Of a stretch of 64,000 bases of DNA, positions 16,744 through 44,060 are shown in pieces (the first letter of the stretch is position 1; each line of letters begins with the position of its first letter). The notes below the pieces were generated by a model, which was not told the origin of the DNA, did not search any database, and saw only the letters and a list, made by a program, of their open reading frames with translations. The position numbers and the translations under genes were made by a program. Source of the stretch: Aquilaria yunnanensis. Its lineage: Eukaryota; Streptophyta; Magnoliopsida; Malvales; Thymelaeaceae. The stretch is taken from positions 22,195,001-22,259,000 of the forward strand of contig CM077594.1 of the NCBI GenBank assembly GCA_039654915.1, in the 5' to 3' direction.

Positions 16744-17025
16744 TGTGGCAACGTGCGGATCGTTTTCGGGAGTCGCCACCAATCAGTTTTCTTAGGTCGA
16801 TTGGATACCTAAAATATGGTCTGCGAGAGTTCGGGGATCGGGAGTACGGTTACGTTAAAACAACTTTGTTAAAACGCCCAAAAATTGGCACCTTAGTTGA
16901 TTTTAATTTTGTTTTGCTTTGCTTTTAAAAAAAAATTTCAGTTAATTTTCAAAAATTAGAAATTTTAACTGGATTAGTCGAAATGTGGATTTTTTAATTA
17001 ATTTATATAAAATTTGATACTTCCG

Positions 17026-17241
17026 AACCATGGACTCTGCCGAGTCATTTGGACACGGAAGATTTTGATTCCGAACCATGGACTCTGCCGAGTCATTTGG
17101 ACACGGAATTTGGTGAAATTTTAAACAATTTTATCCATATTGTAAAAAATATGGATTTATATCTTTTTATTTAATTTATTTATTTTAAAAAGTTTGATAT
17201 TTTCCAAACCGTAGATCCTGCCGGATCATCCGGATATGGAA
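17026..17241. repeat. 36-base 'ccgaaccatgga...' motif, three copies in the 3' LTR (fourth near 18569)
   Basis: Copies start near 17026, 17071 and 17205, and near 18569: 'ccgaaccatggactctgccg' then 'agtcatttggacacgga', with variants carrying 'gatcctgccggatcat'. The 5' LTR has the same four. Each contains short inverted halves around the 'ctgccg' centre. Function unknown; they stand out from the AT-rich surroundings. Confidence 0.6.
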
Positions 17242-17340
17242 ATTGATTTATCGTAATTATTTAATTCTTATTATTATGAAATTAATTTTTAAATGGTAAT
17301 TCTTTTTGTTTATGAATGATTTTTAATACTAACTAAAAAA

Positions 17341-17735
17341 TTTATCTTTATATTTTTACTTCTTTTTTTACTTTCTTTCTTTTTCTTCTTTTTTACTTAT
17401 TTTTACTTTTTTTTTTTAATTTTCTTTTAATTTCTTTTCTTTTCTTTCTTTTTTATTCTTTTCTTTCTTTCTTTTCTTTTTCTTTTTCTTTCTTTTATCT
17501 TTCTTTTCTTTTTCTTATCTTTCCTTTCTTTTTTTATCTTATCTTTCTTTTTTCTTTCTTATCTTTCTTTTATTTTTCTTGTCTTTTCTTTCTTTCTTTT
17601 CTTTTTCTTATCTTTTCTTTTTTTTTTTTTATCTTTCTTTTCTTTCTTATCTTTCTTTTATTTTTCTTTCTTATCTTTCTTTTATTTTTCTTATCTTTCT
17701 TTTTTTTTTCTTGTTTACTTTTTTTGTTTTCTTGT
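17341..17735. repeat. Long CT-rich (TTTCTTT) microsatellite tract in the 3' LTR
   Basis: Nearly pure pyrimidine on the + strand for about 390 bases, hence purine-rich in the element's transcript. The equivalent tract in the 5' LTR runs from about 40860 to 41232. Open frames reading as runs of Phe/Leu/Ser here are compositional. Confidence 0.85.
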
Positions 17736-17866
17736 TTAATGAAAGATATTTATTATTTTAAAGGATTACTCAATTTATAAAAGAATTAAAAAAAATAATA
17801 ATTAATTTTTATTTAATAAGAAGTTAATTTAAAAGAATTAAAGAGTTTAAAAATAAAAATTTTGAT

Positions 17867-17961
17867 CATGGTACGGGGCGTTGTTACTCAGCCAGACCCT
17901 CTTCACCAGGTGAAGCAGCTCAAAAGCGGGCACGAGACAGTTTCCAGCCAATATACCATGA
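17867..17961. other. Structured non-AT-rich island inside the LTR
   Basis: A ~90-base stretch of balanced composition in otherwise AT-rich sequence, bracketed by inverted repeats (CATGGTA near 17868 and TACCATG near 17954) and containing a near-perfect hairpin CTTCACC-A-GGTGAAG near 17908. It is identical in the other LTR (about 41375-41468). It could be a structured RNA or protein-binding element of the leader; no function is known to me. Confidence 0.5.
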
Positions 17962-19544
17962 ACTAAAAATTTTTTATTATTTTTATTATTTTTTTATTAT
18001 TTTATTATTATTTTTTATTATTTTTTTTTTATAAAAGATTAACCAAAAGTAATTGTTTTATTAAGAGAATCAAAAATTTATATGTATATTTTAAACAAAA
18101 GAAGAAAAGTTTTGATATTTATTTAATTTATTTTGGAATAAAAGATTATTTAACCGAAAACTTATATGTATTTTAAAACAAAAGTCTTGATATTTTTATT
18201 TTTATATTCTTCTTTGTTTGATGAAAGATTTTTTTTTTTAATTTTAATTTATATTTCTGAAAATATATCTAATCAATAAGTCAAAAATATTTAAGAGAAA
18301 ATTCAATTATTTTTGTTTTATTTTGTATTATTTTGAAATTATTTGATTAAGATTTTTATAAAAGAAACAAAAAGTTATATAATTTAATAAGTAAAATATT
18401 ACTGAATAAAATATTAACCCAAAATTTTTACGCTTTTTATTCTTTTTATTAATAAAGAAAACTAAAAAAAATTATATATTAATAGATAATTAATATATTA
18501 GTCTAAAGTTTTTTTTTATTTTTTTATAAAGAAAAAATTTATTTATATATTTTATTTAAAAATATTTCCGAGCCATGGATCCTGGCGGATCATTTGGTCA
18601 TGGAGTTTTAATTTTTTTTTTATTTCATTAATTATTAATTTTAAAGATGTATTAAAAGAATGATTTTATGTTTATTTATTTATTTATTTTATTTTTGAAT
18701 TATTTCATTATGTTTGTTTATTAAAAGGAATAAAAACTTTGTTTCAAAATAAAAAAAAAAGTAATTTTTATTAGCCTTTAGAAAATTATTCACGTAAAAT
18801 TCCTTTTTTTTATCTTTTAATCATAAAAAAATTCAATTAATAAAGTGGGGTTTTTTAGCCATCCACTTTAATAACACAATAATAATAAAAGTTAGCACAA
18901 TTAATATAGTTAGATTAGTTGGATTAGTTAGTTAATAACAATAAAAAGGTTAGTAAAAGTTAGATTAAATTAATTAACAACAATAATAAAAATTAGCCAA
19001 GTTTAATTAAATTAATTGTTAACAACAATAATAAAAAGTTAGTCAAGTTAATTAAATTAATTAATTACAACAAAAATAAAAGTTAGACAATTTAATTAAT
19101 TTAATTAATTAACAACAATAATAAAAGTTAGCCAAGTTTAATTAAGTTAATTAATTAACAACAATAAATAAAAATTAGCCAAGTTTAATTAAGTTAATTA
19201 ATTAACAACAATAAATAAAAGTTAGCCAAGTTTAATTAAGTTAATTAATTACAACAAAAATAAAAGTTAGACAATTTAATTAATTATTAACAACAATAAT
19301 AATAAAGGTTAGTAAAAATTAGCAAGTTAGTTGTTAGTTGCTAATAACAAAAAAAAAAAAGGGTTAGTAATAATAACAATAATAAACAAATAAACAAGTA
19401 AAAAAAAATAAATGAGTTAGTTAATTAATTTTCTGCAAAGACAAAATAAAAAGGTTAGTGACCTAATAGAAAGAAATTGAAAAGATGATGGGTGAAACAA
19501 GGGTTTAACCTTTTAGTTTTGAATTTTGAATCCCAGGAAACGAT

Positions 19545-19835
19545 GACGGCGTGAGGCAGGGGGGTGGCGCTGGCGGCGAGGGGAAGGGCAGGGGGCGACG
19601 GGCGACCGTCGGCGAGGGCGGACGGCACGGTGACGGCGGCGGGGGCAGGGCGACGGCGACGGGCAAGGCGGCGCGGCGGAGGTGTCCGGCGGAGGAAAAA
19701 GGAGAGAAAGAAGAACGCGGGCGGCGCGGCGGCGGGAGTTAGGCACGACGGCGACGGCGTCGGGACGGCCGGACGACGGCGGCAGGACGGTTGGGCGGAG
19801 GCGTGGTGGCCGGCGGACGGCGGTGGTGGGCACGG
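19545..19835. other. GC-rich island in the 3' LTR (copy in the 5' LTR near 43052-43345)
   Basis: About 290 bases of extremely GC-rich, 'cggcg'-dominated sequence ending in a GA microsatellite. On the coding strand it lies about 180 bases downstream of the LTR TATA box, so it falls in the transcribed leader. Several strands and frames are open there (proline/arginine-rich on -, glycine/arginine-rich on +), which is compositional and not evidence of a protein. Confidence 0.7.
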
Positions 19836-20017
19836 CGAGAGAGAGAGATAGAGAGAGAGAGAGAAAGAGAGACGGAACAGAGAAAAAAAGTTTTGGCTTT
19901 CTGGGGAAGAAGGGAAGAGGGCTGGGGCTAAGGGATGTAATTTTATCTTTTTTTAAAACTGAGCTCTAAGTTTTTTTTCTATTTTTTTTCTGTGTTCAGC
20001 ACAAAATTTGGGGGGGC

Positions 20018-20025
20018 TATTTATA
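20018..20025 (-). promoter_or_regulatory. TATA box of the 3' LTR
   Basis: TATAAATA on the coding strand about 525 bases from the LTR start, embedded in 'ctataaatagcccccc'. The same box in the 5' LTR (43525-43532) should drive the genomic RNA, making U3 about 0.55 kb and R-U5 about 3.2 kb. Confidence 0.65.
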
Positions 20026-20553
20026 GAGGAAGTTTAGCTGAACTGTTGATGGATAAATTAATAAAAAATTTCAAACTTATCTCTTAAATTGGTAAAATGA
20101 CAATTTTAGTCCTTTACGTCTCTCAGCCTCTGGATAAGTTCCTGAAGCTTCTGATTTTGACAATTTTGTCGTTTTCTGTCAATTTGAGCCAAAAACGTCG
20201 GCAGGCTCAAAATTTTATGTGACAAACTGCCAAATGCTCCTGGAACTTTCAGAATTTGTCAATTTTGCCTGAAACTTCTTAATTTTGTCATTTTTACCTC
20301 AAACTTTTAAATTTTGTCATTTTTATGGAGTTTTCTTTTTTTCTTTCAAACATACACATATACACACATATATCAAATCTTCACAAAACAAAACAAAAAA
20401 AAATATATATATATTTTAAACTAATTAAAAAAATTTAGTAATAATAATAACAATAATAATAATAATAATACATTTTTTTTATTTAATTTTTTTTTTATTT
20501 AATTTTTTTTAAAATTATTTTAATGGCCGGACGAAATTGGGTGTCAACAGCTG

Positions 20554-20562: not shown

Positions 20563-20655
20563 GCATGCTTCATGGGACATGATGTATGCAAAGTTAGTTA
20601 CCAAATTTCGTCCAGCTTAGCTAGGCATTGAAAACCTTCTCGCCGCCTAAACTCT

Positions 20656-23600
20656 GAGGTTTAAGGAAAGGTCCTTGGAACCTCTAACGATAGGAAAGGT
20701 TCTATCGTTGTAAGATGGACTGAATGATTGACTGTTTGTTTGAGGTTTAAGGAAAGGTCCTTGGAACCTCTAACGATAGGAAAGGTTCTATCGTTGTAAG
20801 ATGGACTGAATGATTGATTGTTTGTTTGAGGTTTAAGGAAAGGTCCTTAGAACCTCTAACGATAGGAAAGGTTCTATCGTTGTAAGATGGACTGAATGAT
20901 TGATTGTTTGTTTGAGGTTTAAGGAAAGGTCCTTAGAACCTCTAACGATAGGAAAGGTTCTATCGTTGTAAGATGGACTGAATGATTGATTGTTTGTTTG
21001 AGGTTTAAGGAAAGGTCCTTGGAACCTCTAACGATAGGAAAGGTTCTATCGTTGTAAGATGGACTGAATGATTGATTGTTTGTTTGAGGTTTAAGGAAAG
21101 GTCCTTGGAACCTCTAACGATAGGAAAGGTTCTATCGTTGTAAGATGGACTGAATGATTGATTGTTTGTTTGAGGTTTAAGGAAAGGTCCTTGGAACCTC
21201 TAACGATAGGAAAGGTTCTATCGTTGTAAGATGGACTGAATGATTGATTGTTTGTTTGAGGTTTAAGGAAAGGTCCTTAGAACCTCTAACGATAGGAAAG
21301 GTTCTATCGTTGTAAGATGGACTGAATGATTGATTGTTTGTTTGAGGTTTAAGGAAAGGTCCTTAGAACCTCTAACGATAGGAAAGGTTCTATCGTTGTA
21401 AGATGGACTGAATGATTGATTGCTTGTTTGAGGTTAAGGAAAGGTCCTTAGAACCTCTAACGATAGGAAAGGTTCTATCGTTGTAAGATGGACTGAATGA
21501 TTGATTGTTTGTTTGAGGTTTAAGGAAAGGTCCTTGGAACCTCTAACGATAGGAAAGGTTCTATCGTTGTAAGATGGACTGAATGATTGATTGTTTGTTT
21601 GAGGTTTAAGGAAAGGTCCTTGGAACCTCTAACGATAGGAAAGGTTCTATCGTTGTAAGATGGACTGAATGATTGATTGTTTGTTTGAGGTTTAAGGAAA
21701 GGTCCTTAGAACCTCTAACGATAGGAAAGGTTCTATCGTTGTAAGATGGACTGAATGATTGATTGTTTGTTTGAGGTTTAAGGAAAGGTCCTTGGAACCT
21801 CTAACGATAGGAAAGGTTCTATCGTTGTAAGATGGACTGAATGATTGATTGTTTGTTTGAGGTTTAAGGAAAGGTCCTTGGAACCTCTAACGATAGGAAA
21901 GGTTCTATCGTTGTAAGATGGACTGAATGATTGATTGTTTGTTTGAGGTTTAAGGAAAGGTCCTTAGAACCTCTAACGATAGGAAAGGTTCTATCGTTGT
22001 AAGATGGACTGAATGATTGATTGTTTGTTTGAGGTTTAAGGAAAGGTCCTTAGAACCTCTAACGATAGGAAAGGTTCTATCGTTGTAAGATGGACTGAAT
22101 GATTGATTGTTTGTTTGAGGTTTAAGGAAAGGTCCTTGGAACCTCTAACGATAGGAAAGGTTCTATCGTTGTAAGATGGACTGAATGATTGATTGTTTGT
22201 TTGAGGTTTAAGGAAAGGTCCTTGGAACCTCTAACGATAGGAAAGGTTCTATCGTTGTAAGATGGACTGAATGATTGATTGTTTGTTTGAGGTTTAAGGA
22301 AAGGTCCTTGGAACCTCTAACGATAGGAAAGGTTCTATCGTTGTAAGATGGACTGAATGATTGATTGTTTGTTTGAGGTTTAAGGAAAGGTCCTTAGAAC
22401 CTCTAACGATAGGAAAGGTTCTATCGTTGTAAGATGGACTGAATGATTGATTGTTTGTTTGAGGTTTAAGGAAAGGTCCTTAGAACCTCTAACGATAGGA
22501 AAGGTTCTATCGTTGTAAGATGGACTGAATGATTGATTGTTTGTTTGAGGTTAAGGAAAGGTCCTTAGAACCTCTAACGATAGGAAAGGTTCTATCGTTG
22601 TAAGATGGACTGAATGATTGATTGTTTGTTTGAGGTTTAAGGAAAGGTCCTTAGAACCTCTAACGATAGGAAAGGTTCTATCGTTGTAAGATGGACTGAA
22701 TGATTGATTGCTTGTTTGAGGTTAAGGAAAGGTCCTTGGAACCTCTAACGATAGGAAAGGTTCTATCGTTGTAAGATGGACTGAATGATTGATTGTTTGT
22801 TTGAGGTTTAAGGAAAGGTCCTTAGAACCTCTAACGATAGGAAAGGTTCTATCGTTGTAAGATGGACTGAATGATTGATTGTTTGTTTGAGGTTTAAGGA
22901 AAGGTCCTTAGAACCTCTAACGATAGGAAAGGTTCTATCGTTGTAAGATGGACTGAATGATTGATTGCTTGTTTGAGGTTAAGGAAAGGTCCTTAGAACC
23001 TCTAACGATAGGAAAGGTTCTATCGTTGTAAGATGGACTGAATGATTGATTGTTTGTTTGAGGTTTAAGGAAAGGTCCTTGGAACCTCTAACGATAGGAA
23101 AGGTTCTATCGTTGTAAGATGGACTGAATGATTGATTGTTTGTTTGAGGTTTAAGGAAAGGTCCTTAGAACCTCTAACGATAGGAAAGGTTCTATCGTTG
23201 TAAGATGGACTGAATGATTGATTGTTTGTTTGAGGTTTAAGGAAAGGTCCTTGGAACCTCTAACGATAGGAAAGGTTCTATCGTTGTAAGATGGACTGAA
23301 TGATTGATTGTTTGTTTGAGGTTTAAGGAAAGGTCCTTGGAACCTCTAACGATAGGAAAGGTTCTATCGTTGTAAGATGGACTGAATGATTGATTGTTTG
23401 TTTGAGGTTTAAGGAAAGGTCCTTAGAACCTCTAACGATAGGAAAGGTTCTATCGTTGTAAGATGGACTGAATGATTGATTGTTTGTTTGAGGTTTAAGG
23501 AAAGGTCCTTAGAACCTCTAACGATAGGAAAGGTTCTATCGTTGTAAGATGGACTGAATGATTGATTGTTTGTTTGAGGTTTAAGGAAAGGTCCTTAGAA

Positions 23601-24595
23601 CCTCTAACGATAGGAAAGGTTCTATCGTTGTAAGATGGACTGAATGATTGATTGTTTGTTTGAGGTTTAAGGAAAGGTCCTTGGAACCTCTAACGATAGG
23701 AAAGGTTCTATCGTTGTAAGATGGACTGAATGATTGATTGTTTGTTTGAGGTTTAAGGAAAGGTCCTTGGAACCTCTAACGATAGGAAAGGTTCTATCGT
23801 TGTAAGATGGACTGAATGATTGATTGTTTGTTTGAGGTTTAAGGAAAGGTCCTTAGAACCTCTAACGATAGGAAAGGTTCTATCGTTGTAAGATGGACTG
23901 AATGATTGATTGTTTGTTTGAGGTTTAAGGAAAGGTCCTTAGAACCTCTAACGATAGGAAAGGTTCTATCGTTGTAAGATGGACTGAATGATTGATTGTT
24001 TGTTTGAGGTTAAGGAAAGGTCCTTAGAACCTCTAACGATAGGAAAGGTTCTATCGTTGTAAGATGGACTGAATGATTGATTGTTTGTTTGAGGTTTAAG
24101 GAAAGGTCCTTAGAACCTCTAACGATAGGAAAGGTTCTATCGTTGTAAGATGGACTGAATGATTGATTGCTTGTTTGAGGTTAAGGAAAGGTCCTTGGAA
24201 CCTCTAACGATAGGAAAGGTTCTATCGTTGTAAGATGGACTGAATGATTGATTGTTTGTTTGAGGTTAAGGAAAGGTCCTTAGAACCTCTAACGATAGGA
24301 AAGGTTCTATCGTTGTAAGATGGACTGAATGATTGATTGCTTGTTTGAGGTTTAAGGAAAGGTCCTTAGAACCTCTAACGATAGGAAAGGTTCTATCGTT
24401 GTAAGATGGACTGAATGATTGATTGTTTGTTTGAGGTTTAAGGAAAGGTCCTTGGAACCTCTAACGATAGGAAATGTTCTATCGTTGTAAGATGGACTGA
24501 ATGATTGATTGTTTGTTTGAGGTTTAAGGAAAGGTCCTTGGAACCTCTAACGATAGGAAATGTTCTATCGTTGTAAGATGGACTGAATGATTGAT
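20656..24595. repeat. Satellite-like tandem array, 86-bp unit, about 46 copies
   Basis: Units begin 'gaggtttaaggaaaggtcct' and end 'gattgattgtttgttt'. Neighbours differ at few positions: 'ccttggaacc' versus 'ccttagaacc', 'ggttaagg' versus 'ggtttaagg', and 'ttgcttg' versus 'ttgtttg'. Each unit holds two inverted repeats: AACGATAG / CTATCGTT around an 8-base loop, and AGGTT..AAGGA / TCCTT..AACCT. The array sits between the LOG gene and the 3' LTR, the hypervariable 3' untranslated region of Ogre-type elements, which is documented as a source of satellite DNA. The last two units carry 'ggaaatg' in place of 'ggaaagg'. Frames crossing it are not genes. Confidence 0.95.
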
Positions 24596-25291: not shown

Positions 25292-25921
25292 TTATGGGAG
25301 TGAACTGGTCGGAAAATACTGTCGTGTCCAGTCTATCTGAATCATTGCTGGATGTGGTTCAGGAACAAAAGCTTGTATTTTATCTAGCAATTCTTCAGCA
25401 GTTGTTGCGGATATTATGATTCGCCGTGCCACTCTTGATATGAAATTCTTCTGCATAGCATAATCCATAAAAGCTATCAGACCTGTAAAGAAATTGTTAA
25501 CATTTAAAAGCCCAATGGGTTTCTTATGCAAATTAAGTTGGGCCATGGAAGCAATTTGAAAGACTTCTCCCAACGTGCCAAAACCACCTGGTAGAGCGAT
25601 AAAAGCATCAGCATTTAAAAGCATTTGTAACACACGCTCTTGCAAATTTTTAACCACTAATTCTTCTCCAATCGTGCCCCCAGAAACAAATTTCAAAGGT
25701 CCAGGGATGATGCCCAAAACTTGACTTCCTCCTAAAGATGCTGCTGATGCTACACCTCCCATTAATCCGACACTACCTCCTCCATAAACTAAATGTATTT
25801 TTCGCTCAGCTAATACTCTACCCAAATGGTTGGCTGCCTTTAAATACTCTTCATCTTTTCCAGGAAAAGCCCCAGAAAATACACAAATACTTCGGGATTT
25901 ACGAGTTGGGGTTTTCTCCAT
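25292..25921 (-). CDS. LOG: LOG-family cytokinin riboside 5'-monophosphate phosphoribohydrolase, intronless, retrotransposon cargo
   Basis: LOG enzymes release active cytokinin bases from their nucleotide precursors in the cytosol. The 209-residue frame is full length for the family. Visible motifs, numbered from the chosen Met: ICVFSGAFPGK near 11-22, YGGGSVGLMG near 46-55, and PGGFGTLGE near 111-119, which matches the family signature PGGxGTxxE including its catalytic glutamate. The arginine of NLQER (about 96) fits the second conserved position; the lysine that usually follows is valine. The frame is open 29 codons further upstream (to 26008), but MEKTPTRKSR is the typical LOG start and the extra codons overlap the TATA box. 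Plant LOG genes normally contain several introns; this copy has none, suggesting capture through cDNA. Intact, same strand as the retrotransposon. Confidence 0.9.
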   Translation of the reverse strand: MEKTPTRKSRSICVFSGAFPGKDEEYLKAANHLGRVLAERKIHLVYGGGSVGLMGGVASAASLGGSQVLGIIPGPLKFVSGGTIGEELVVKNLQERVLQMLLNADAFIALPGGFGTLGEVFQIASMAQLNLHKKPIGLLNVNNFFTGLIAFMDYAMQKNFISRVARRIIISATTAEELLDKIQAFVPEPHPAMIQIDWTRQYFPTSSLP

Positions 25922-25950
25922 TCCTATCCTTATCCTTGTGAGAAAAGAGG

Positions 25951-25961
25951 ATATATTTATA
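25951..25961 (-). promoter_or_regulatory. TATA box of the cargo LOG gene
   Basis: TATAAATATAT on the - strand about 30-40 bases before the chosen ATG, preceded by 'catctc'. The same arrangement (T[C/G]..CTATAAAT) precedes three of the viral-like cargo genes. Confidence 0.6.
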
Positions 25962-26019
25962 GAGATGAAGAGATAAGGCAATAATTTTATTTTCAAGAGT
26001 GGATACATTATTGCCAGCT

Positions 26020-26560
26020 ATACACAGTAGTCACGAGTATGACTCTGGTCAGGTATGGGTACACTATCGTTAAAAGAGGAGGAAAATTTTCAAAATAGCT
26101 GCTAGCATGTACAGTAGTCACTACTGTAGCTTACGTCAGGAGTAGGTATGTGATTGTTGGAAGGGAAGGAAAATTTCAAAAGTGGCAGCTATATACAGTA
26201 GTCCGTGTCAGGAGTGGGTACATTATTGCCAAAGGGGAGGAAAATTTCAAAAGCGACAGCTAGCACGTACAGTAATCGTAACTATGGCTCATGTCAGGAG
26301 TGGATACATTATCGCTGAAAGGGGAGGAAAATTTCAAAAGCGACAGCTAGTACGTACAGTAATCGTGACTTTGGTTCACGTCAGGAGTGGATACATTATT
26401 ACCAAAAGGGGAGGAAAATTTCAAAAGCGACAGCTAGTACGTGCAGTAATCGTGACTTTGGTTCACGTCAGGAGTGAATACATTATTACCAAAAGGGGAG
26501 GAAAATTTCAAAAGCGACAGCTAGCACGTACAGTAATCGTGACTTTGATCCTCGTCTTCC
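26020..26560 (-). repeat. About six tandem copies of an 87-bp unit upstream of LOG
   Basis: Units start near 26024, 26111, 26197, 26271, 26358 and 26445 ('agtaatcgtgactttggttc', 'acgtcaggagtggatacatt', 'aaaggggaggaaaatttcaa', 'aagcgacagctagtacgtac'); a partial seventh merges into the downstream end of the first viral-like gene. Similar sequence recurs once in each spacer between the viral-like genes. On the - strand the units carry CCTGAC(G/A)TGA and GTAC(G)TAC(G) motifs; TGACG is the core bound by TGA-type bZIP factors. This is probably an amplified promoter region of LOG. A 132-codon frame on the + strand here is a repeat artefact. Confidence 0.75.
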
Positions 26561-26595
26561 ACTGGCTTTGCGTCCAGTAATGGCTTCAATGCTTT

Positions 26596-27144
26596 CTATG
26601 AATCGGTGATTTGCATCTCATCTAGCTTTCTCACAAACTGGCAAACAGGGTCATTTAGGGTCAGATTCCCAAGACTGTAACGATCTCGTTCTTTTTGGAA
26701 AATTATCCATAATCCAACAACCTCAAATTGCACTATTCCACAAGAATGCGCTTCAAGAACCTCTCGAATATCTTCTAGAGATTCCTTACGCAAGCCATTC
26801 TTAATGAATCTTATTCTATCATTACGATTTCTGGTGATCACTCCTGGAGCACGACATTTATTGCCGCAAATCCACCATCCACAATTATGACAAACGCCTA
26901 GCCTCTTTGCTCTTCTTTTTTTGGCATAAGCGCTTTTACCAAAGCCGGGCATACGGGGAAAGAACGCTTCGGGAACTTCACCAGCTGAACGAACCTTAGC
27001 TTCAATTAGCCACCGCACATTATCAGGAATGCCTTTGTGCATAAATACTCTGAATCGTTCACATCTAGCTTGATAAATCTTTTTAAGAACATTTATTGGG
27101 AAGGAAGGAAAATACTTTCGTAGGGCGGAAAGAGAAGACTCCAT
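26596..27144 (-). CDS. Viral-NABP-like cysteine-cluster protein, cargo copy 1
   Basis: 182 residues, intact. Following a helical N-terminus (SLSALRKYFPSFPINVLKKI) come a basic stretch SAYAKKRRAKR (about 71-81) and a four-cysteine cluster C-x2-C-x4-C-x3-C (VCHNCGWWICGNKC, about 84-97), then a conserved DRIRFIKNGL (about 109-118). A basic patch directly before a compact cysteine cluster and a following R/K-F-I/V-K block is characteristic of the small 3'-proximal nucleic-acid-binding proteins of vitiviruses and carlaviruses, which bind RNA and in several cases suppress RNA silencing. I chose the internal Met at 27144 over 27159 because it aligns with the other three copies and gives exactly 549 bp. 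It is the most diverged in the cysteine region (GWWIC, APG). No virus polymerase or coat gene accompanies it. A host-origin zinc-finger family is the alternative. Confidence 0.72.
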   Translation of the reverse strand: MESSLSALRKYFPSFPINVLKKIYQARCERFRVFMHKGIPDNVRWLIEAKVRSAGEVPEAFFPRMPGFGKSAYAKKRRAKRLGVCHNCGWWICGNKCRAPGVITRNRNDRIRFIKNGLRKESLEDIREVLEAHSCGIVQFEVVGLWIIFQKERDRYSLGNLTLNDPVCQFVRKLDEMQITDS

Positions 27145-27202
27145 TGATGAAGGAGGCAAAGAAAGAAATTAGTGATTGTAGGAAACGAACATAACTAACA
27201 CA

Positions 27203-27210
27203 TATTTATA
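27203..27210 (-). promoter_or_regulatory. TATA box of cargo copy 1
   Basis: TATAAATA on the - strand about 60 bases before the ATG at 27144, preceded by 'ctttcgtcac', the same context as upstream of copies 2 and 3. Confidence 0.6.
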
Positions 27211-27360
27211 GTGACGAAAGGGATAATGCGTTTATTACACTTACAGAAGCAAGTACATTATTGTCAAAAGAAAAGACAAATGACAGCTTATATGTACAGC
27301 AATCATGACTGTGGCTCTCATCTTCCACTGATTTATGTCTAGTAACGGCTTCAATGCCTT

Positions 27361-27909
27361 CTATAAGTCGGGGATTTGCTTCCCATCCAGTTTTCTCACA
27401 AACTGGCAAACAGGGTCATTAAAAGTTAGATTTCCAAGACTGTAACGATCCTGTTCTTTACGGAAAGTCCACCATAAATCCATAATTTCCCATTGCACTA
27501 TTTCACAAGAATGTGTTTCAAAAGTTAATAGGATATCATCCAAAGATTCCTTACGCAGGCCATTCTTGATGAATTTTCTTTTATCTTCATGATTTCTGGA
27601 GATGTATCCTAAAAAGCGACATTTAGTATTACAATTCCATCGTCCACATTTATGACAGACACCAAGCCTCTTTGCTCTTCGCTTTTTGGCATAAGCGCTT
27701 TTACCAAAGCCGGGCATACGGGGAAAGAACGCTTCTGGAACTTCACCAGCTGAACGAACCTTAGCTTCAATTAGCCACCGCACATTGTCAGGAATGCCTT
27801 TGTGCATAAAGACTCTAATCCTTTCACATCTAGCTTGGTAAATCATTTTAAGAACATTTATTGGGATGGAAGGAAAGTATTTTCGCATGGCGGAAAGAGT
27901 AGAATCCAT
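27361..27909 (-). CDS. Viral-NABP-like cysteine-cluster protein, cargo copy 2
   Basis: 182 residues, same length as the other copies with no indels. Basic stretch SAYAKKRRAKR then VCHKCGRWNCNTKC (four cysteines, C85, C88, C93, C97), then a K-F-I-K-N-G-L block. The first 84 residues are nearly identical to copy 1, so these two share a recent duplication or gene conversion, while the region after the cysteines is closer to copy 3. Duplication therefore included gene plus promoter: spacing from ATG to ATG is about 765 to copy 1 and 804 to copy 3. Predicted role: RNA binding in cytosol or nucleus (basic patch could act as nuclear signal). Family assignment as for copy 1. Confidence 0.72.
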   Translation of the reverse strand: MDSTLSAMRKYFPSIPINVLKMIYQARCERIRVFMHKGIPDNVRWLIEAKVRSAGEVPEAFFPRMPGFGKSAYAKKRRAKRLGVCHKCGRWNCNTKCRFLGYISRNHEDKRKFIKNGLRKESLDDILLTFETHSCEIVQWEIMDLWWTFRKEQDRYSLGNLTFNDPVCQFVRKLDGKQIPDL

Positions 27910-28012
27910 TGATAAAAGAAGAATTTGAGAGAAGAGATGAAGAAATCAGTTATTGTAGGAAACTGAGAGTCAGAGAGTATTGCATCCGCTACTTAACCGG
28001 AAAGAAGAACAC

Positions 28013-28021
28013 GCATTTATA
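28013..28021 (-). promoter_or_regulatory. TATA box of cargo copy 2
   Basis: TATAAATGC on the - strand about 105 bases before the ATG at 27909, within 'ctttcatcgctataaatg'. Confidence 0.58.
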
Positions 28022-28164
28022 GCGATGAAAGGATAACGTGTTAATTACGCTTACAGGAACAAGTATATTAAAAGAAAAGACAAATGACAGCTTATATGTA
28101 CAGGAATCATGACCGTGGCTCTCATCTTCCCCTGATTTATGTCCAGTAATGGCTTCAATGCCAT

Positions 28165-28713
28165 CTATAAGTCGGGGATTTGCTTCCCATCCAGTTTTCT
28201 TACAAACTGACAAACAGGATCGTTTAAAGTCACATTCCCAAGACTGTAACGGTTTCGTTCTTTATGGTAAGTCCTCCATAAACTGATAATTTCACCTTGC
28301 ACTTTTCCACAAGAATGCGTTTCAAGAGTCTCTCGGATATCTTCCAGAGATTCCTTACGCAGGCCATTCTTAATGAATTTTCTTTTATCTTCACGATTTA
28401 TGGAGATGTATCCTAAAGAGCGACATTTAGTAATACAATTCCATCGCCCACATTTATAACACACGCCTAGTCTCTTTGCTCTTCGCCTTTTGGCATAACG
28501 GCTTTTACCTAAACCGGGCATGCGGGGCATAAATGCATCTGGAACTTCACCCGCCAGACGGACCTTAGCTTCAATTATCCACTGCACATTATCGGGAATG
28601 CCTTTGCGTGTAAAAACTCTGATTCTTTCACATCTAGCAAGGTAGATCTTTTTAAGGACTTTTATTGGAAAGGAAGGAAAGTATTTTCGCAGTGCAGAAA
28701 GAGTAGAATCCAT
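28165..28713 (-). CDS. Viral-NABP-like cysteine-cluster protein, cargo copy 3
   Basis: 182 residues, intact. Basic stretch SRYAKRRRAKR followed by VCYKCGRWNCITKC; all four cysteines are conserved although HK is replaced by YK, so the spacing rather than the intervening residues is constrained. The downstream block (REDKRKFIKNGLRKESLEDI) is conserved with copies 1, 2 and 4. Differences from the other copies are scattered substitutions without indels or stops, the pattern expected if the protein is selected. Its C-terminus (NDPVCQFVRKLDGKQIPDL) is identical to that of copy 2. Confidence 0.72.
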   Translation of the reverse strand: MDSTLSALRKYFPSFPIKVLKKIYLARCERIRVFTRKGIPDNVQWIIEAKVRLAGEVPDAFMPRMPGLGKSRYAKRRRAKRLGVCYKCGRWNCITKCRSLGYISINREDKRKFIKNGLRKESLEDIRETLETHSCGKVQGEIISLWRTYHKERNRYSLGNVTLNDPVCQFVRKLDGKQIPDL

Positions 28714-28792
28714 TGATGAGAGAAGAATTTGAGAGAAGAGGGAAATGAATCAGTTATTGAAGGAAACTTAGATAACCGACTGGAAGAACATG

Positions 28793-28800
28793 CATTTATA
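28793..28800 (-). promoter_or_regulatory. TATA box of cargo copy 3
   Basis: TATAAATG on the - strand about 85 bases before the ATG at 28713, in the context 'tttcatcgctataaatg'. Confidence 0.58.
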
Positions 28801-28959
28801 GCGATGAAATGGATAACGTGTCGATTACACTTACGGGAGCAAATACATTATTAAAAGAAAAATGGAAAATTTTAAATATGATAAATTGTATGTACAGTGA
28901 TTGTGACTGTGGCTCACATCTTCCACTGGTTTTACGTCCAGTAACGGGATTAATGGCTT

Positions 28960-29508
28960 CTATGAGTCGAGGATTTGCTTCCCATCCAGTTTTCTTACAA
29001 GCTGACAAATAGGGTCGTTTAATGTCAGATTCCCGGGACTGTATCGTTCTCGTTCTTCATGAAAAATGCTCCATAAATCGAGAAGTTCACGTTGCACGGA
29101 TCCACAAGAATGCGTCTCAAGAGTCAATTGGAGATCATCCAATGAGTCCTTACTCAGGCCATTCTTAATGAATCGTATTTTATCTTCTCGATTATCAGAG
29201 ATCATCCCTAAAGAACGACATTTAGTATTACAGGTCCAGCGTCCGCATTTATGACAGACGCCTAGTCTCCTCGCTCTTCGCTTTTTGGCATAAGAGCTTT
29301 TGCCTACACCAGGCATGTGAGACACAACTGCCTCTGGGATTTCACCTGCCAGACGAACCTTAGCTTCAACTAACCACCGCACATCTTCAGGGATTCCTTT
29401 ATGCATCAGAGCTCTTAATCGTTCACAGCGAACTTGGTAGATCTTTTTGAGGATGTTCATTGGGAGAGAAGGAAAATATTTTCGCAAGGCAGAAAAAGTA
29501 GGATCCAT
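28960..29508 (-). CDS. Viral-NABP-like cysteine-cluster protein, cargo copy 4 (nearest pol)
   Basis: 182 residues and the most diverged copy overall (MDPTFSALRKYFPSLPMNILKKI...). It keeps SSYAKKRRARR, VCHKCGRWTCNTKC and KIRFIKNGLSKDSLDDL. It lies first after pol, about 1.3 kb downstream of the pol stop. Its upstream region lacks the clean TATAAATA of the other copies, although 'aaataaagtagg' near 29625-29635 could serve; it shares the leader element 'ccg(c)cttaaccggaaaag' (29600-29620) with copy 2 (27988-28003). It is probably the oldest of the four, the others arising by serial tandem duplication. Confidence 0.72.
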   Translation of the reverse strand: MDPTFSALRKYFPSLPMNILKKIYQVRCERLRALMHKGIPEDVRWLVEAKVRLAGEIPEAVVSHMPGVGKSSYAKKRRARRLGVCHKCGRWTCNTKCRSLGMISDNREDKIRFIKNGLSKDSLDDLQLTLETHSCGSVQRELLDLWSIFHEERERYSPGNLTLNDPICQLVRKLDGKQILDS

Positions 29509-29639
29509 TTTCTAGGAGAAAGTAAAAGAAAGGAGGGAGGAAATGATCAGTTATTATGGGCAACTGAGAGAACCGACTTGAGAGTCACGGAGTACCGTAT
29601 CCGCCGCTTAACCGGAAAAGTGAATCCTACTTTATTTTG

Positions 29640-30803: not shown

Positions 30804-33800
30804 TTATGCAAAGTATTTCTTTACTGCATCCGAATTTACTGGCTTCGGTAAATCTCGTCCATCCATTTCTGTCAGAATTAGTGCCCCTCCTGAAAATGCT
30901 TTCTTCACGACATATGGCCCGTCATAATTTGGTGTCCATTTTCCTCTTGAATCATGTTGCATGGGTAAAATTTTCTTGAGCACTATGTCACCTTCGTGAA
31001 ATTGTCGTGGGCGAACCTTTTTGTTGTAAGCACGAATCATCCTTCTTTGATAAAGTTGCCCATGGCAGAGGGCTATCATTCTTCTTTCATCAATTAGATT
31101 TAATTGCTCGTATCTAGCTTTGACCCATTCTGCTTCTCCTAATTGAGTATCCATTAGTACCCTTAATGAAGGAATTTCAACTTCGATAGGCAATACAGCC
31201 TCCATACCGTATACCAGAGAAAAAGGTGTTGCTCCAGTAGAAGTACGGGTAGAAGTTCTATAAGCATGCAGTGCAAAAGGTAACATCTCATGCCAGTCCT
31301 TGTAAGTGACGATCATCTTTTCAACAATTCTCTTGATATTTTTATTGGCCGCTTCTACTGCACCATTCATCATCGGTCGATAAGGTGCTGAATTGAGATG
31401 CTTGATTTTGAATTGCCGGCACAAAGTCTGCATCATTGCATTATTCAGGTTCGTGGCATTGTCTGAGATGATACACTCTGGCGGTCCATAGCGACAAATG
31501 ATTTCTTTCTTAATGAACCGGCATACCACCTTTTGAGTTACGCTTGCATAAGACACAGCTTCTACCCATTTAGTAAAGTAGTCAATTGCAACTAGGATGA
31601 ATTTGTGACCATTGGAAGCTTTAGGGGTAATCGCTCCAATAACATCGATTCCCCACATGGCAAAAGGCCAAGGTATTGCTGTTACATTAAGAGGAACAGG
31701 TGGAGCTTGGATCTTGTTGGCATATATTTGGCATTTGTGACATTTTCTTACGTGATTGACGCAATCACTTTCCAATGTGAGCCAATAGTAACCAGCCCTC
31801 ATTATTTGTCTTGCCATGGTATGACCACTAGTGTGTGCTCCACATATTCCAGAATGAACTTCTTCCATGATCTTTCGTGCTTCATGAGTATCTACACAGC
31901 GAAGTAGCATCGAGTCTGGGGTTTTCTTGTAAAGTATGTCTAGGTTTAAAAGAAAACCCATTGACAATCTTCGTAGAAATTTCTTGTCATTTTCTGATAC
32001 TTCTGGTGGATATACTCTTTCTTGGAGGTATTTCTTGATATCGTGATACCAAGGCTTTCCATCCAATTCTTCTTCGATGCTCATGCAATAAGCTGGAGAA
32101 TCTATTATTCTCATCTCGAACACAGGAGTATGCTCGGGGTCACTGATCTTGTACATAACAGCCAAAGTAGCTAAAGCATCCGGTATTTGATTATCTTCCC
32201 TTGGAAGATGATGGAAGCTTATACTGTTGAATTTTCGAGCCAAGTCTAGTATGAGCTTTTGGTAAGGGATCAATTTTGAATCCCTTGTCTCCCATTCTCC
32301 GTTGATTTGATATATGACTAATGCGGAATCCCCATAAACTCGGAGATCTCGCACTTTCAATTCCAGTGCCATTTGGAGTCCCATAGCACATGCCTCATAC
32401 TCTACTATATTGTTGGTACAAGGAAATGTAATTTTTGCTGTAAGAGGGAATTGCTCTCCACTTGGAGAGATGAGTATGGCCCCAATCCCTTGTCCCAAAG
32501 CATTAGATGCTCCATCGAATGCCATTTTCCATGTTTCATCATCTTTAGAGACTTCTTGTTCTATTGTCATTATATCTCCATCAGGAAACTCCATTTTCAT
32601 TGGCTCATAATCATCCAATGCTCTATCAGCCAGATATTCAGCAATTACACTCCCTTTTACAGCCTTTTGGGTGACATACTGTATGTCGTATTCAGACAAC
32701 AGCATTTGCCATTTTGCGATCCTGCCTGATAAAGCTGGTTTTTCAAAAATGTACTTAATGGGATCAGTCTTGGAGATTAGCAATGTGGTGTTGTTGAGCA
32801 TGTAGTGTCGTAGTCGGTGTGCTACCCATGCAAGGGCACAACAGGACTTTTCTACTATTGAGTATTTCGCTTCATATGTGGTAAGCTTCTTGCTCAAATA
32901 GTAAATTGCATGCTCTTTCTTGCCTGTCTCATCATGTTGACCTAATACGGATCCTAATGAAGAATCCTGTATGGATAAATATAGAATCAACGATTCTCCA
33001 GATCGGGGTGGTACCAAGACTGGTGGATTTGATAGATATTGCTTGATTTTCTCGAATGCTTCTTGGCATTCGTTATTCCACTCGATCGGATTGTTCTTCT
33101 TCAGTGATTTGAAAAGAGGTTCACACTTGGATGTCAATTGTGAAATGAACCTTGCTATGAAGTTGATTCTGCCCAGAAAACTTCTTACTTGTTTTGGAGT
33201 CTTCGGGGGTTGCATTTCTTGTATTGCTTTGACTTTACTCGGGTCAACTCGAATCCCATCCTTGCTGACCATGAAACCCAATAACTTTCCTGAAGAGGCT
33301 CCAAAAATACATTTGGCAGGATTCAACTTCAGTTGATATTTGCGAAGTCTATCGAATAGTTTTCTTAGCACTTTTAGATGCCCCTTAGCAGTGAAAGTTT
33401 TGGCGATCATGTCGTCTACATATACTTCAATTTCTTTATGCATCATGTCATGGAATAATGCAACCATGGCTCTTTGATATGTAGCACCAGCATTCTTTAA
33501 CCCAAAAGGCATCACCTTGTAGTAGAAGGTACCCCAAAGGGTTATAAAGGCAGTTTTTATCATATCATCTGGATCAAGTTTGATTTGATTGTATCCAGAG
33601 AAGCCATCCATGAAGGAAAAATAGGAGTTTCCTGCGGTATTATCCACCAGCGTATCAATGTGAGGAAGTGGGAAGTTATCTTTAGGACTGGCTTCGTTCA
33701 ATGGCCGGTAGTCTTGACAAACTCTTAGTTTCCCGCTTTCTTTCTTTTCGACTGGAACAATGTTAACCACCCATTCTGTATATTCAGCGACCCCAAGGAA

Positions 33801-34233
33801 TCCTGCATCCCACAGCTTTCGAATCTCATCTTTCACTCTTAAGATTAGATCCGGCTTTAATCTTCGTAACTTTTGTCTGACAGGCTTCGCCCCAGGTTTC
33901 AAGGGTATTTTGTGTAGTACTATGTCTGAGCTTAAGCCAGGCATATCTTGGTATGACCAAGCAAACACATCCACATATTCTTTCAATAAATGGACTAATT
34001 CTTCTTTTTCTTCAGGAGGGAATAAAGTGCCAATCTTGACTTCTTTTACATCCTGACTGTCTCCCAGGTTGAATACCTCAGTTGGTTCTTGACTTGTTGC
34101 CCTTTCTTTTTCATCTCGCTCAATCATTTTTAATAGCTCAGGAGATACTTGAAGATCTTCGTCATCCGAGTCGGTAGTGTTTACAGGATTATCAAAGTTC
34201 ATTCTTTCATTGTCATCAAAGAGAGTTTTGGGT
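30804..34233 (-). CDS. pol: Ogre pol: reverse transcriptase, RNase H, second RNase H, integrase (second exon of gag-pro-pol)
   Basis: Open for 1132 codons from the first Met (34202) and open upstream to the intron acceptor at 34234. RT has FMDGFSGYNQIKL and the active-site YVDD near residue 260 (counting from 34202), followed by the usual gypsy RNase H. A second, archaeal-type RNase H follows (FDGASNA near 560, VEYEACAMGL, VYGDSALV, PDALATLA), a hallmark of the Tat lineage. Integrase has an HHCC zinc domain (ending KCHKC), a DDE core (D in GIDVIG near 850, D in SDNATN near 912, E in GAVEAANKN near 950) and a GPY/F module (DGPYVVKKAF near 1095). No chromodomain. No stop or frameshift seen, so the polymerase part looks functional. 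Confidence 0.95.
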
Positions 34234-34434
34234 CTGCATTATCCAGAGAGAAAAGAAAGAGAAGAAAAAAAAAAAATGGCACGAATGAGATGGATGCAAA
34301 CTGGTACTTTATTTACAATGTGCATAAATCACAACTTTATTGGAATAAAAAGCAATAACTAAAAGGTTCACTTAAACAAAGACTACACCCTATTGATTGA
34401 ACCTTTCTTTAGGAGGTTTTTACTATTAGATTAC
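34234..34434 (-). other. Ogre-type intron between protease and reverse transcriptase (201 bp)
   Basis: On the - strand the donor GT is at 34434-34433 and overlaps the gag-pro stop codon (TAA at 34433-34431). The acceptor is AATGCAG with AG at 34235-34234, preceded by a strong polypyrimidine run (34248-34275). Removing exactly these 201 bases puts the last gag-pro codons in frame with pol through a split lysine codon. A partly spliced intron at this place is a described feature of Ogre elements and would regulate the Gag to Gag-Pol ratio. Confidence 0.85.
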
Positions 34435-37400
34435 TTTGGAAAGCTTTCGATTATAACAGGCAGTTCTATCGCCTCCCAATTGTTCAGCACATCCCGTGGG
34501 CCACAAGGTTGAACAAGCTCCTCCTCTTCAGGTGAATCGCTGATGATTGCCTGAATAGAAAGACTTTCAAAAGACTTGTTGATGTTGATAGTCAGCTTGC
34601 CTTCATTGTCATTTTTTGGAATGAGACCACCACTCACGAACGTTTCGGTGATTTCAGGGATATCCAGATTTCTTTCCTGGAGAGGATGCCCTGTTAATCG
34701 TGCAATCCTCTTTTCTCTCTTTTCAGCTATTGCCTTCAGTTTATCATGTCTTGTCGGTGTGAAGCCTAGGCCGTATTTCCCTTCATTTGTGGTGATTTTC
34801 AATGGTTCTGTGATTCCTTGTAAATCTTGTCCCAGTCCTAACCCCGGTGAGTATCCTCCTTTTATCATGAGTTTGGCAACCATGCGACTTGTTTTAGAGA
34901 TGCTAGGAATGGGTTCTTCTCCATATTCGCTGACATAAGCAGCATTGACAATCTCAAAAGACCTGAAGGAGCAATCAGGTATATTTTCATTGACTTCGAC
35001 ATATTGAGCATCCGCAGGTCTTGATAGCAGGATGTCTTCTTCAGCGAAGACCGTGATTATCTTTCCTTCAATAATGAATTTCATTTTCTGGTGTAATGAA
35101 GAAGGAATTGCTCCGGCCATATGGATCCATGGTCTTCCCAGCAGGCAGGTATAAGATGGACAAATATCCATGACTTGGAATGTGATGTGGAAAAGACAGG
35201 GACCAATCCCTATTGGTAGCTCTATTTCTCCAACAACATCTCTCTTCGTTCCGTCAAATGCTCGAACAACAATATGACTGTTGTTGAGGTATGATGGGTC
35301 TAAACCAATCTTATGTAAGGTTTCGAGTGGCATTACATTTAGAGCTGACCCATTGTCGATAAGAACTCTGGCCATAATCCGATCTTTGTATTTAATCGAA
35401 ATATGCAGAGCCTTAGAGTGACCTCTTCCTTCTGCTGGTATCTCATCGTCAGTGAATGTGATGAGATTTTGTGCCGTGATGTTGTTGACAAGGTGGTCAA
35501 AGTTGTTCACGGAGATATCTTGTTCAACATAAGCCTTATTCAGGACTTTGAGAAGAGCTTCTCGATGGGCATCAGAACTTAAGAGTAATGAAAGTATGGA
35601 GATCTTTGCTGGCAGACGGTTCAACTGCTCCACGATACTGTATTCACTTTGCTTTATGAGTTTGAGAAACTCAGTAGCTTGTTCATCTGTTACTGCTCGA
35701 GGCATCTCTTGCTCTTTAGATGTGTTAATAGGTCCATTTGCTGGATCCGTAACATTCTTCTCTTGTTGGAGCTTGTTCATTTGCTCGGGAGAATAACACC
35801 GACCGCTTCTAGTCATGCCCCCAACTTCTAACGGAGTTGATGTGATGTTAGAAGTATAGTCATAGTTCCATGGAACAGTTTTATCTGATTTGTACGGGAA
35901 TGGCTTTGGAACTTGAATTCTTAAAGGCTTGAGAGCAGATTTTGAGATTGGAATGACTAGTGGTCTTGGCATGATATTGACTTCTTGTTCTTTAATTATC
36001 ACATTCACGTCATCCTCTTTATCTGACATAAAAACGATGATTTGGGAGGAGTCCATGAGACTTTGTAGACTTTTACGGAATTCTGGGCATTCTTGGATAG
36101 AATGACTTTTACTGTTATGAAAGTTGCACCACTCCTCATCCTCGACTTCTTTATTTCCAGAAGACTTTCCTATGATAATCCCTTCTTTCACAAGGCATGA
36201 ATATACATGCTTAAGAGGGGTTATGATATCATTGACTGTTTTCTTCATCGGCCAGTATTCTTCCATCATATTGACTGGTTTGGCTTGATGAGGAGGCAAT
36301 GGATTATGAGTGACGTTTGGTTCATCGGAAAAGTCCAACCACTTTGACTCAATTAATTGTTGGACTATACGCTTCAATGCTATGCAATTTTCCAGTCCGT
36401 GGCCCACGGTACCATCATGATATGGGCAATTTATGTTAGGGTCATACCACCTTGGATACGGGGGTTCCAATGGCCTTGTAGGGATTGGGTGAATAAGTTG
36501 ACTTTCGATGAGTTTTGGATACAGCTCAGTGTAAGTCATGGGAATTGGTGCGAAGATTTCTCTTGGTCTTGGTGCAGGTACTGGAGGAGTTGGAACAGGT
36601 GGCCGTAACTGATTAGGTCTGTTGGGAGGATAATTGTTGGGTCTATTGGGAAGATAATCATTGGGCCTATTGGGAGGATAATCATTGGGCCTATTGGTAG
36701 GATAATAATTGGGCTTATTGGCAGAATAGGATAGGCGAGGTCCGGTGGCCACAGTGCCCACGAAGGGAATCCCTCTTCCTCTTCCTATTTGTTGTATTTC
36801 TTCATCTTTTCTTCTGGAAGGTCCTCCTCTTTTCATAGGATCGCTAAAGGATTCAGTAATCTTCCCAGTCCTGATACCATGCTCGATCCTTTCTCCAGAC
36901 ATTACTACGTCGGAGAAGTTAGTTGCCGCATTGCCAATAAGTTTGTCATAATATGGGTATTTCAGTGTCTGGACAAATAAAGTGACCATTTCTCTTTCTG
37001 TCATGGGTGGCTGAACCTGTGCAGCTAAGTCCCTCCACCGCTGCGCATATTCCTTGAAAGTTTCTGGCTTTTTCTTCTCCATGTTTTGGAGAGTTTGGCG
37101 ATCCGGAGCCAAGTCCATAACGTGTTTATAGTTGCCGATGAAGGCCTGAGCAAGGTCATTCCAAGTTTTTATGTTCCTTGGACCTTGGCTTAGATACCAC
37201 TGTAATGCTGATTTTGTAAGACTTTCCTAAAAAAGTGCGATCCACACCTTTTCATCTTTTGTGAGTGGTTGTAGTCTCCTTAGGAACAATGTGATGTGAG
37301 TGATGGGATCACTCGTTCCATCGTATTTCATGAAATCTGGCACCTTAAAATCTGAAGGGATTACGACGTCTGGCACTAAGCAGAGGTCATCCACCGAGAG

Positions 37401-37742
37401 AGATCCGAATATAGTGCCTCCTTCAATGGCTCGCAGTCGCTTTTCTATTGTTTCGAGTTTTTGAGATTCTGCTTCTTCTTTTGGTAATGTCTTCTTCTCT
37501 TCCTGTACAGTGTCTTGTTTCAGGTGAACACTAGCAGACGGTCCTGATTCTTGAAACAGGTTTTCTTGGACTGAGACTCGTTGCGGGGTGAATCCCGGGG
37601 GATAAGTGGGATCTTGTACTTCTTTGATGGGGACTTGAGTTGCTTTCCCTTTGATTAATTCCATCAATTGTCTCATCTGTTCTGACATACTTTCAATCTT
37701 GGACTCCATCTCCATGAGACGTCCTTCGGCTTGTTCTGCCAT
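34431..37742 (-). CDS. gag-pro: Ogre gag-pro, one reading frame interrupted by a single amber codon
   Basis: ATG at 37742 begins a short coiled-coil-like region (MESKIESMSEQMRQLMELI). The gag core follows (FKVPDFMKYDGTSDP onward) but a TAG at 37229-37227 interrupts it; the same frame continues without other stops to 34431. Downstream are a proline/asparagine octapeptide repeat (NRPNxYPP, 36605-36715), two zinc-knuckle-like motifs of the C-x2-H type (CPYHDGTVGHGLENC and CNFHNSKSHSIQEC), an aspartic protease (VLIDNGSALNV near 35350-35370) and a G-patch-like glycine-rich segment (GGYSPGLGLGQ, near 34840-34870). The stop is probably a recent C-to-T change at a CAG codon, which would disable this copy unless it is read through. 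Restart at the Met at 37118 would lose the front of the gag core. Confidence 0.88.
37227..37229 (-). other. In-frame TAG within gag
   Basis: The codon follows KVWIALF and precedes ESLTKSALQWY in the same frame; both sides match Tat-type gag cores, so nothing else is lost. Confidence 0.85.
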
Positions 37743-44055: not shown

Positions 44056-44060
44056 GCTAT
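44056..44060. repeat. Target-site duplication GCTAT, right
   Basis: Directly follows the 5' LTR and equals 16739-16743. Confidence 0.93.

Follow-up and report, generated by a model that had tools for sequence, protein, structure and literature searches.

Anatomy and boundaries of the element

The window, a stretch of 64,000 nucleotides from contig CM077594.1 of Aquilaria yunnanensis, contains a single minus-strand retrotransposon insertion of 27.3 kb with Ogre/Tat anatomy, which encloses four frames for nucleic-acid-binding proteins (NABPs) between pol and the 3' long terminal repeat (LTR). Self-blastn of the window revealed a 3.8-kb direct-repeat pair at 16744-20552 and 40251-44058 with an identity of 99.76%. 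The ends of these LTRs read TGTTG...CACA, and the flanking ATAGC trimmed them to 16744-20549 and 40251-44055. The two LTRs differed in 10 of 3810 aligned columns, 7 of which were substitutions (approximately 0.2% divergence), giving an insertion age of about 0.07 million years at a rate of 1.3e-8. On the minus strand the order was open reading frame (ORF) 1, gag-protease, a gap, reverse transcriptase-RNase H-additional RNase H-integrase, the four NABPs, a LONELY GUY (LOG) gene, an 86-bp array and the 3' LTR. The parts of the element around the NABP and LOG genes were as follows:

40251..44055, minus strand: 5' LTR (self-blastn, 99.76% to the other LTR; TG...CA ends)
16744..20549, minus strand: 3' LTR (self-blastn; TG...CA ends)
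44056..44060, no strand: target-site duplication ATAGC on the 5' side of the element (flank sequence)
16739..16743, no strand: target-site duplication ATAGC on the 3' side of the element (flank sequence)
37931..39625, minus strand: ORF1, DUF7745/plant mobile domain protein (DUF7745 191 bits, cut-off 26)
34431..37742, minus strand: gag-protease region with G-patch (37.3 bits, cut-off 22)
30804..34202, minus strand: reverse transcriptase, RNase H, additional RNase H and integrase (RVT_1, RT_RNaseH, RVT_3 and rve, each above cut-off)
20655..24595, no strand: satellite-like 86-bp tandem array, 45.9 copies with 98% matches, between LOG and the 3' LTR

Tandem arrays are known from the 3' part of Ogre-type elements, and the sequence after the 5' LTR, a candidate primer binding site, resembles the tRNA-Arg site of Ogre elements. 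RT_RNaseH and RVT_3 each scored above cut-off within a single frame, which gives the additional RNase H, and a 228-bp, intron-like gap with putative splicing separated the gag-protease frame from the frame of reverse transcriptase, RNase H and integrase. The plant mobile domain (PMD) of ORF1 scored 33.1 bits, slightly below its cut-off of 34.9, and the gag and protease profile matches in 34431..37742 were likewise below their cut-offs. In the published description the Tat clade, with Ogre as a subclade, is marked by the additional RNase H, which is the defining feature, by an ORF with a plant mobile domain and by a gap splitting the two polyprotein frames; the extra ORF is reported for 57% of Ogre elements, and the gap averages 274 bp (PMC6317226). 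The initial annotation had named an Ogre-type element as the carrier, and the domains, LTRs and target duplication agree with it. The LTRs, the target-site duplication and the position of the genes show that a retrotransposon carries the NABP genes. A location of the NABPs outside the element was ruled out by the enclosing LTRs and target duplication. The window gave no match in an Rfam scan and contained no tRNA genes.

The four NABP genes and their family

The NABP genes follow pol on the coding strand of the element:

26596..27144, minus strand: NABP copy 1 (Viral_NABP 27.1 bits, Carla_C4 21.9 bits)
27361..27909, minus strand: NABP copy 2 (Viral_NABP 26.5 bits, Carla_C4 25.2 bits)
28165..28713, minus strand: NABP copy 3 (Viral_NABP 31.5 bits, Carla_C4 24.3 bits)
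28960..29508, minus strand: NABP copy 4 (Carla_C4 29.9 bits, Viral_NABP 29.0 bits)

Coordinates and lengths of the four intact frames were confirmed as first annotated, each frame being exactly 549 bp long (182 aa plus stop). Protein identity to copy 1 was 78% for copy 2, 74% for copy 3 and 68% for copy 4, while the basic stretch, the neighbouring four-cysteine cluster and the FIKNGL block, all of them described in the initial annotation, were invariant or nearly so across the four. The unit repeats at a spacing of 765-804 bp, and in a neutral simulation (2000 runs, 0.2-0.4 substitutions per site) a copy stayed free of stops in only 0.15-2.75% of runs, per copy. Given this recurrence and the rarity of such frames in the simulations, the four open frames are not attributable to chance. 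A tblastn search of the 64-kb window returned no fifth copy, the remaining matches having E 0.55 or worse. The interval 29509-30803 held six stop-to-stop frames of at least 45 aa (45-69 aa).

Past the stop codons of copies 1 and 4 the frame stays open (26550-26595 and 28885-28959, minus strand) and resembles the C-terminal tails (...KAFKPLLDVKPEEDVSHNHNYC) of the relatives P0080, P0099 and P0240, which lack the stop. A leaky stop, a lost extension and conserved promoter DNA are candidate explanations for this sequence.

All four proteins exceeded the curated Pfam gathering cut-offs for Viral_NABP and Carla_C4, in line with the Viral_NABP-type identity proposed at the outset. When 68 proteins were scanned, the four of the window among them, Carla_C4 was found in 67 and Viral_NABP in 64 (E <= 0.01). 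The alternative of a plant zinc-finger family, raised together with the viral one, was rejected: apart from a weak SHQ1 match in two of the 68 proteins, these viral models were the only ones that Pfam gave. The NABP gene is not peculiar to this element, since a search of 5.8 billion proteins yielded 114 relatives among 229 candidates and a profile search yielded 580 at E <= 10 among 6714 candidates, the best 120 being listed. Named sources among the matches listed were the eudicots Rhamnella, Xanthoceras, Acer, Citrus, Gossypium, Parasponia, Populus and Orobanche; there was no named virus among the matches listed, which for the profile search are the best 120 of 580. The finger spacing C-x2-C-x4-C-x3-C was present in 128 of 166 NABP proteins and a variant with x4 at the end in 14, with neither in the other 24 (fragments included).

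Duplication and selection

Compared in pairs, the four copies had dN/dS values of 0.20-0.43 (upper bootstrap limits 0.33-0.67) and dS values of 0.40-0.95. With ratios this low at such distances, the copies are best read as old duplicates held by purifying selection, which bears out the earlier suggestion that the gene had been amplified and kept intact. In a tree without viral proteins, whose bootstrap was not fully settled, the four copies, P0001 and P0005 formed one clade (100/98), within which copy 4 grouped with P0001 and copy 1 with P0005; the duplication would therefore predate the P0001 and P0005 splits. Since the LTRs differ by so little, the copies have probably stayed intact over many cycles of transposition.

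That the genes are neutral cargo, acquired by chance and carried without function, appears very improbable. Extra ORFs of such elements are heterogeneous and thought to have been acquired independently from many sources (PMC6317226), as neutral acquisition would have it, but the dN/dS values, well below 1 at the dS observed, largely refute it for NABP. It is also at odds with four frames that are open against the simulated expectation for each, and with the recurrence of both NABP and LOG in many plants.

Predicted fold and link to viral proteins

The AlphaFold model of NABP used for fold searches was built from 134 sequences (pLDDT 83.4, pTM 0.65); a weak first model (pLDDT 66.6) was not used for searching. 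Against the viral models of BFVD the search gave 60 matches at E <= 10, and 30 of the best 50 of 60, which were listed, had a probability of at least 0.54. Names were available for 26 of these 30, and 25 of the 26 were proteins of flexiviruses, mostly nucleic-acid-binding proteins or silencing suppressors. The sole exception was p23 of citrus tristeza virus. No solved structure was related to NABP by sequence (best E 0.21), and a PDB fold search with the model found no relative (13 matches, best E 2.8). The modelled link to viral NABPs is one of profiles and of a flexivirus-specific ranking, not of clean superposition.

The relationship may also run the other way, with the NABP family an old plant retrotransposon gene that was the source of the flexivirus genes, not a captured viral gene. 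Such an origin would suit a gene with relatives across the eudicots, where the named sources include rosids and asterids, and with no named virus among the matches listed. It would also suit the element proteins, which at about 182 aa make up a single large family and are constrained in parts that lie beyond the finger. Against it, the absence of named viruses holds for the matches listed, in the profile search the best 120 of 580, the trees had no viral root, and there is good documentation of RNA-virus fragments in the genomes of plants (PMC3136472). We consider this origin unlikely.

The LOG gene and its tail

The initial annotation took the cargo to be the four NABP genes and overlooked a LOG gene, next after copy 1, that lies behind a related promoter-like unit:

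25292..25921, minus strand: LONELY GUY-like gene, intronless, 209 aa (frame open from 26008; no EAR-like tail)

The 238-aa frame scored 105.9 bits with Lysine_decarbox. LOG scored 150.1 bits with TIGR00730 (cut-off 96.35) and 98.9 with the equivalog model NF058542, far below the cut-off of 300, and matched At2g37210 at E 2e-51. The PGGxGTxxE motif is retained and was present in 108 of the 120 relatives listed. The gene is predicted to be a captured gene for an enzyme of the cytokinin-activating type, with the corresponding activity, and LOG enzymes are described as regulators of cytokinin activity (PMC9289625). Relatives numbered 7832 among 7999 scored, and 27 of the best 120 listed came from Reevesia pubescens alone, which fits the expectation for a mobile gene.

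An LxLxL sequence lay within the last 14 residues in 101 of the 120 relatives listed, and 98 of these 101 also carried a basic cluster within the final 25 residues; shuffling of the last 30 residues yielded an LxLxL tail in 3.3%. The tail was present in all six LOGs linked to NABP by a shared carrier-sequence size or gene model (6/6), and when one relative was aligned to two Arabidopsis LOG structures, the alignments ended before it. The tail resembles the EAR motif, through which TOPLESS co-repressors are recruited.

Promoter-like units

Related upstream sequences precede three of the NABP copies and LOG:

28714..28959, minus strand: promoter-like unit before NABP copy 3 (TATA box near 28800)
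27910..28164, minus strand: promoter-like unit before NABP copy 2 (TATA box near 28021)
27145..27360, minus strand: promoter-like unit before NABP copy 1 (TATA box near 27210)
25922..26595, minus strand: upstream region of LOG with shared distal sequence and tandem 87-bp copies (TATA box near 25961)

Most of the length of the spacers before copies 1-3 can be aligned, and these spacers contain CTATAAAT 66-112 bp 5' of the ATG, the distance from TATA box to ATG being 66 bp for copy 1, 112 bp for copy 2, 87 bp for copy 3 and 40 bp for LOG. The start of the LOG upstream region matched the unit of copy 1 at 77.5% over 80 bp, and for the proximal TATA segment only 2, 0 and 0 of 1000 mononucleotide shuffles were as good against the units of copies 3, 2 and 1, respectively. 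Between the distal and TATA parts of the LOG region lie tandem distal copies with a period of 87 bp (3.9 copies by TRF), together with more diverged ones. Copy 4 shares only leader stretches with the other units (~82% over 40-44 bp). Judged by these alignments, the upstream units of copies 1-3 and LOG are related to each other, and they may work as promoters. A derivation of the units from the LTR was rejected, as no match was found outside 25993-29618 at E <= 0.01 in the window, LTRs included.

NABP-LOG pairing in other plants

The NABP-LOG order recurs in gene models of Citrus, Acer and Rhamnella, where an NABP-like part is followed by a LOG-family Pfam part (E <= 0.01) in five fused models:

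P0064: Rhamnella
P0088, P0096 and P0113: Citrus
P0111: Acer

The curated LOG cut-off was exceeded only by P0064 and P0096 and the curated NABP cut-off only by P0111; P0064 and P0113 had no NABP profile match in the Pfam scan, the NABP parts of the fused models having been assigned by the protein-relative search that gave the 114 relatives. In a sixth model, P0080 from Gossypium, the end looks by eye like a LOG C-terminus. Among carrier sequences above 2 kb, chromosome-size sequences left out, four identical sizes were common to 43 NABP rows and 25 LOG rows (0.22 expected, P 0.0001), and we infer that carriers of equal size are the same sequences. Over all sizes the signal was weak, with 7 of 74 LOG rows matching 92 NABP rows (2.5 expected, P 0.016). 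In the Rhamnella models P0057 and P0106 an integrase end is joined to NABP; that of P0057 has 24% identity to the window integrase and is presumably of Athila type. These models hint at an NABP/LOG module in more than one retrotransposon lineage, although fused gene models can be annotation errors.

The pairing bears on whether NABP alone matters, acting as a cytoplasmic silencing suppressor that shields the element RNA while LOG is an unrelated passenger, which comes near the view of the first annotation. Several carlavirus relatives do suppress silencing (PMC3689765, PMC7588395), NABP is the amplified and constrained gene, and the LOG of the window is without the tail common in its relatives. 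A passenger LOG is harder to reconcile with the related promoter unit that precedes it, with the recurrence of the NABP-LOG order in the Rhamnella, Citrus and Acer models, and with a LOG frame that is open and keeps its active-site motif. We hold it improbable that NABP acts alone.

Proposed explanation

The anatomy of the element and the homology of its genes are, in our judgment, very probably as described. The explanation that we prefer overall, with a confidence that falls a little short of even, is an Ogre-type element with a post-pol accessory region of four NABPs and a captured LOG, which suggests that the element carries tools for manipulating its host. How these would work is a more tentative matter. 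The NABP and LOG genes would be transcribed from their own promoters; NABP would bind RNA or DNA and, like carlavirus p12, would dampen RNA silencing and/or activate host genes in the nucleus. LOG would raise active cytokinin in the same cell, and more cytokinin would favour dividing cells, through which new copies of the element may reach the germ line. A host-conditioning accessory region is favoured because of the dual role of p12 as nuclear activator and cytoplasmic suppressor (PMC7588395), the existence of carlavirus suppressors and the role of LOG in cytokinin activity. The PVH and PVM proteins are described as silencing suppressors, and an earlier test of p12 was negative (PMC3689765).

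Several results weigh against the host-conditioning explanation. Suppressor activity is reported to vary among carlavirus proteins (PMC3689765), and the finger spacing of the element NABPs differs from the two carlavirus spacings with which it was compared. The structure search proposed in the initial annotation gave the flexivirus-specific ranking, with probabilities up to 1.00, yet the best E was 1e-3 and TM by query was at most 0.41. A scan of viral contigs for the NABP pattern gave 35 pattern matches, 0 of them confirmed, and the comparison of NABP with viruses was made through profiles and predicted viral structures, not individual viral sequences. In the final third of the gene, copies 3 and 4 had a dN/dS of 0.90. 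No TATA box was found before copy 4 by the pattern used. The window LOG has no LxLxL tail and sits on a long branch with P0115, for which reason the window lineage may have altered or lost the function of the tail. Finally, the gag of this copy has one in-frame stop, with the reading open on either side (34431-37742, minus strand), and a search of the gag-protease region for a D[TS]G protease motif found none; because of both, the copy may not move by itself and probably depends on other copies. Despite the gag stop, ORF1, the frame of reverse transcriptase, RNase H and integrase, the four NABPs and LOG are all open.

Plant LTR retrotransposons are usually thought to replicate with gag and pol alone, and reprogramming of host cells is done by some viruses and gall-formers. 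The element retains five accessory genes, namely a family shared with RNA viruses and a gene predicted to activate a hormone, and four of the five are preceded by related promoter-like units. If these genes work like their relatives, transposons would possess means of the viral kind for countering silencing and for directing the division of host cells, and existing genomes would allow the gene traffic between RNA viruses and retrotransposons to be put to the test. A broader idea, which we rate as rather doubtful, is that several lineages of giant LTR retrotransposons of plants share a host-manipulation module, consisting of flexivirus-type NABPs and a LOG extended by a basic, EAR-like tail on repeated copies of one promoter, which would reprogram hosts through hormone, silencing and transcription and would form a reservoir of flexivirus NABPs, whether taken or given.

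Other features of the window

Three further features were noted:

46502-47443: perfect 471-bp tandem duplication beside a Helitron-like helicase gene
47225-51227, minus strand, and 3484-4731, plus strand: Helitron-type Rep/PIF1 helicase pieces in several frames
13377-13898, plus strand: DDE transposase piece (DDE_Tnp_4)

Comparison with known systems

In the open-licence literature we found no report of NABP in a retrotransposon, of an NABP-LOG pair or of the promoter units, and on NABP or LOG in retrotransposons the sole relevant paper that came up was PMC9289625. The presence of LOG in plant Gypsy elements is already in print: a YgdH/LONELY GUY domain is given for Gypsy elements of Citrus and Populus (PMC9289625, citing Steinbauerova 2011), and these resemble the present element in having a LOG-type gene, while NABPs, promoter units and EAR-like tails go unmentioned in the passage concerned. 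The same source describes orchid Ogre-like elements with an AlkB RNA demethylase, which are alike in being giant Tat-type elements with an RNA-acting accessory gene and differ in their cargo, a protein similar to plant AlkB proteins (PMC9289625). Ogre/Tat elements with extra ORFs share the additional RNase H, the gap-split polyprotein ORFs, the possession of extra ORFs as such and, probably, the plant-mobile-domain ORF; the survey counts extra ORFs only from 250 codons upward, a length that neither NABP nor LOG reaches, and in its relevant sections names no NABP (PMC6317226).

Endogenous non-retroviral RNA virus sequences of plants are comparable in placing RNA-virus-related genes in chromosomes, including a betaflexivirus-like piece in cucumber; that piece is replicase-like, and 'NABP' has 0 occurrences in the main text of that account (PMC3136472). 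The cysteine-rich proteins of carlaviruses, such as chrysanthemum virus B p12, are alike in the basic stretch before a four-cysteine finger and in the Pfam models (PMC7588395, PMC3689765, PMC10141686). The likeness to carlavirus proteins claimed at first holds for the profiles, the basic stretch and the four cysteines and fails for the spacing within the finger, which is given as C-X2-C-X9-C-X4-C or CX2CX12CX4C for carlaviruses and is C-X2-C-X4-C-X3-C in the element NABPs. Unlike the carlavirus proteins, the element NABP sits in a retrotransposon, in four copies.

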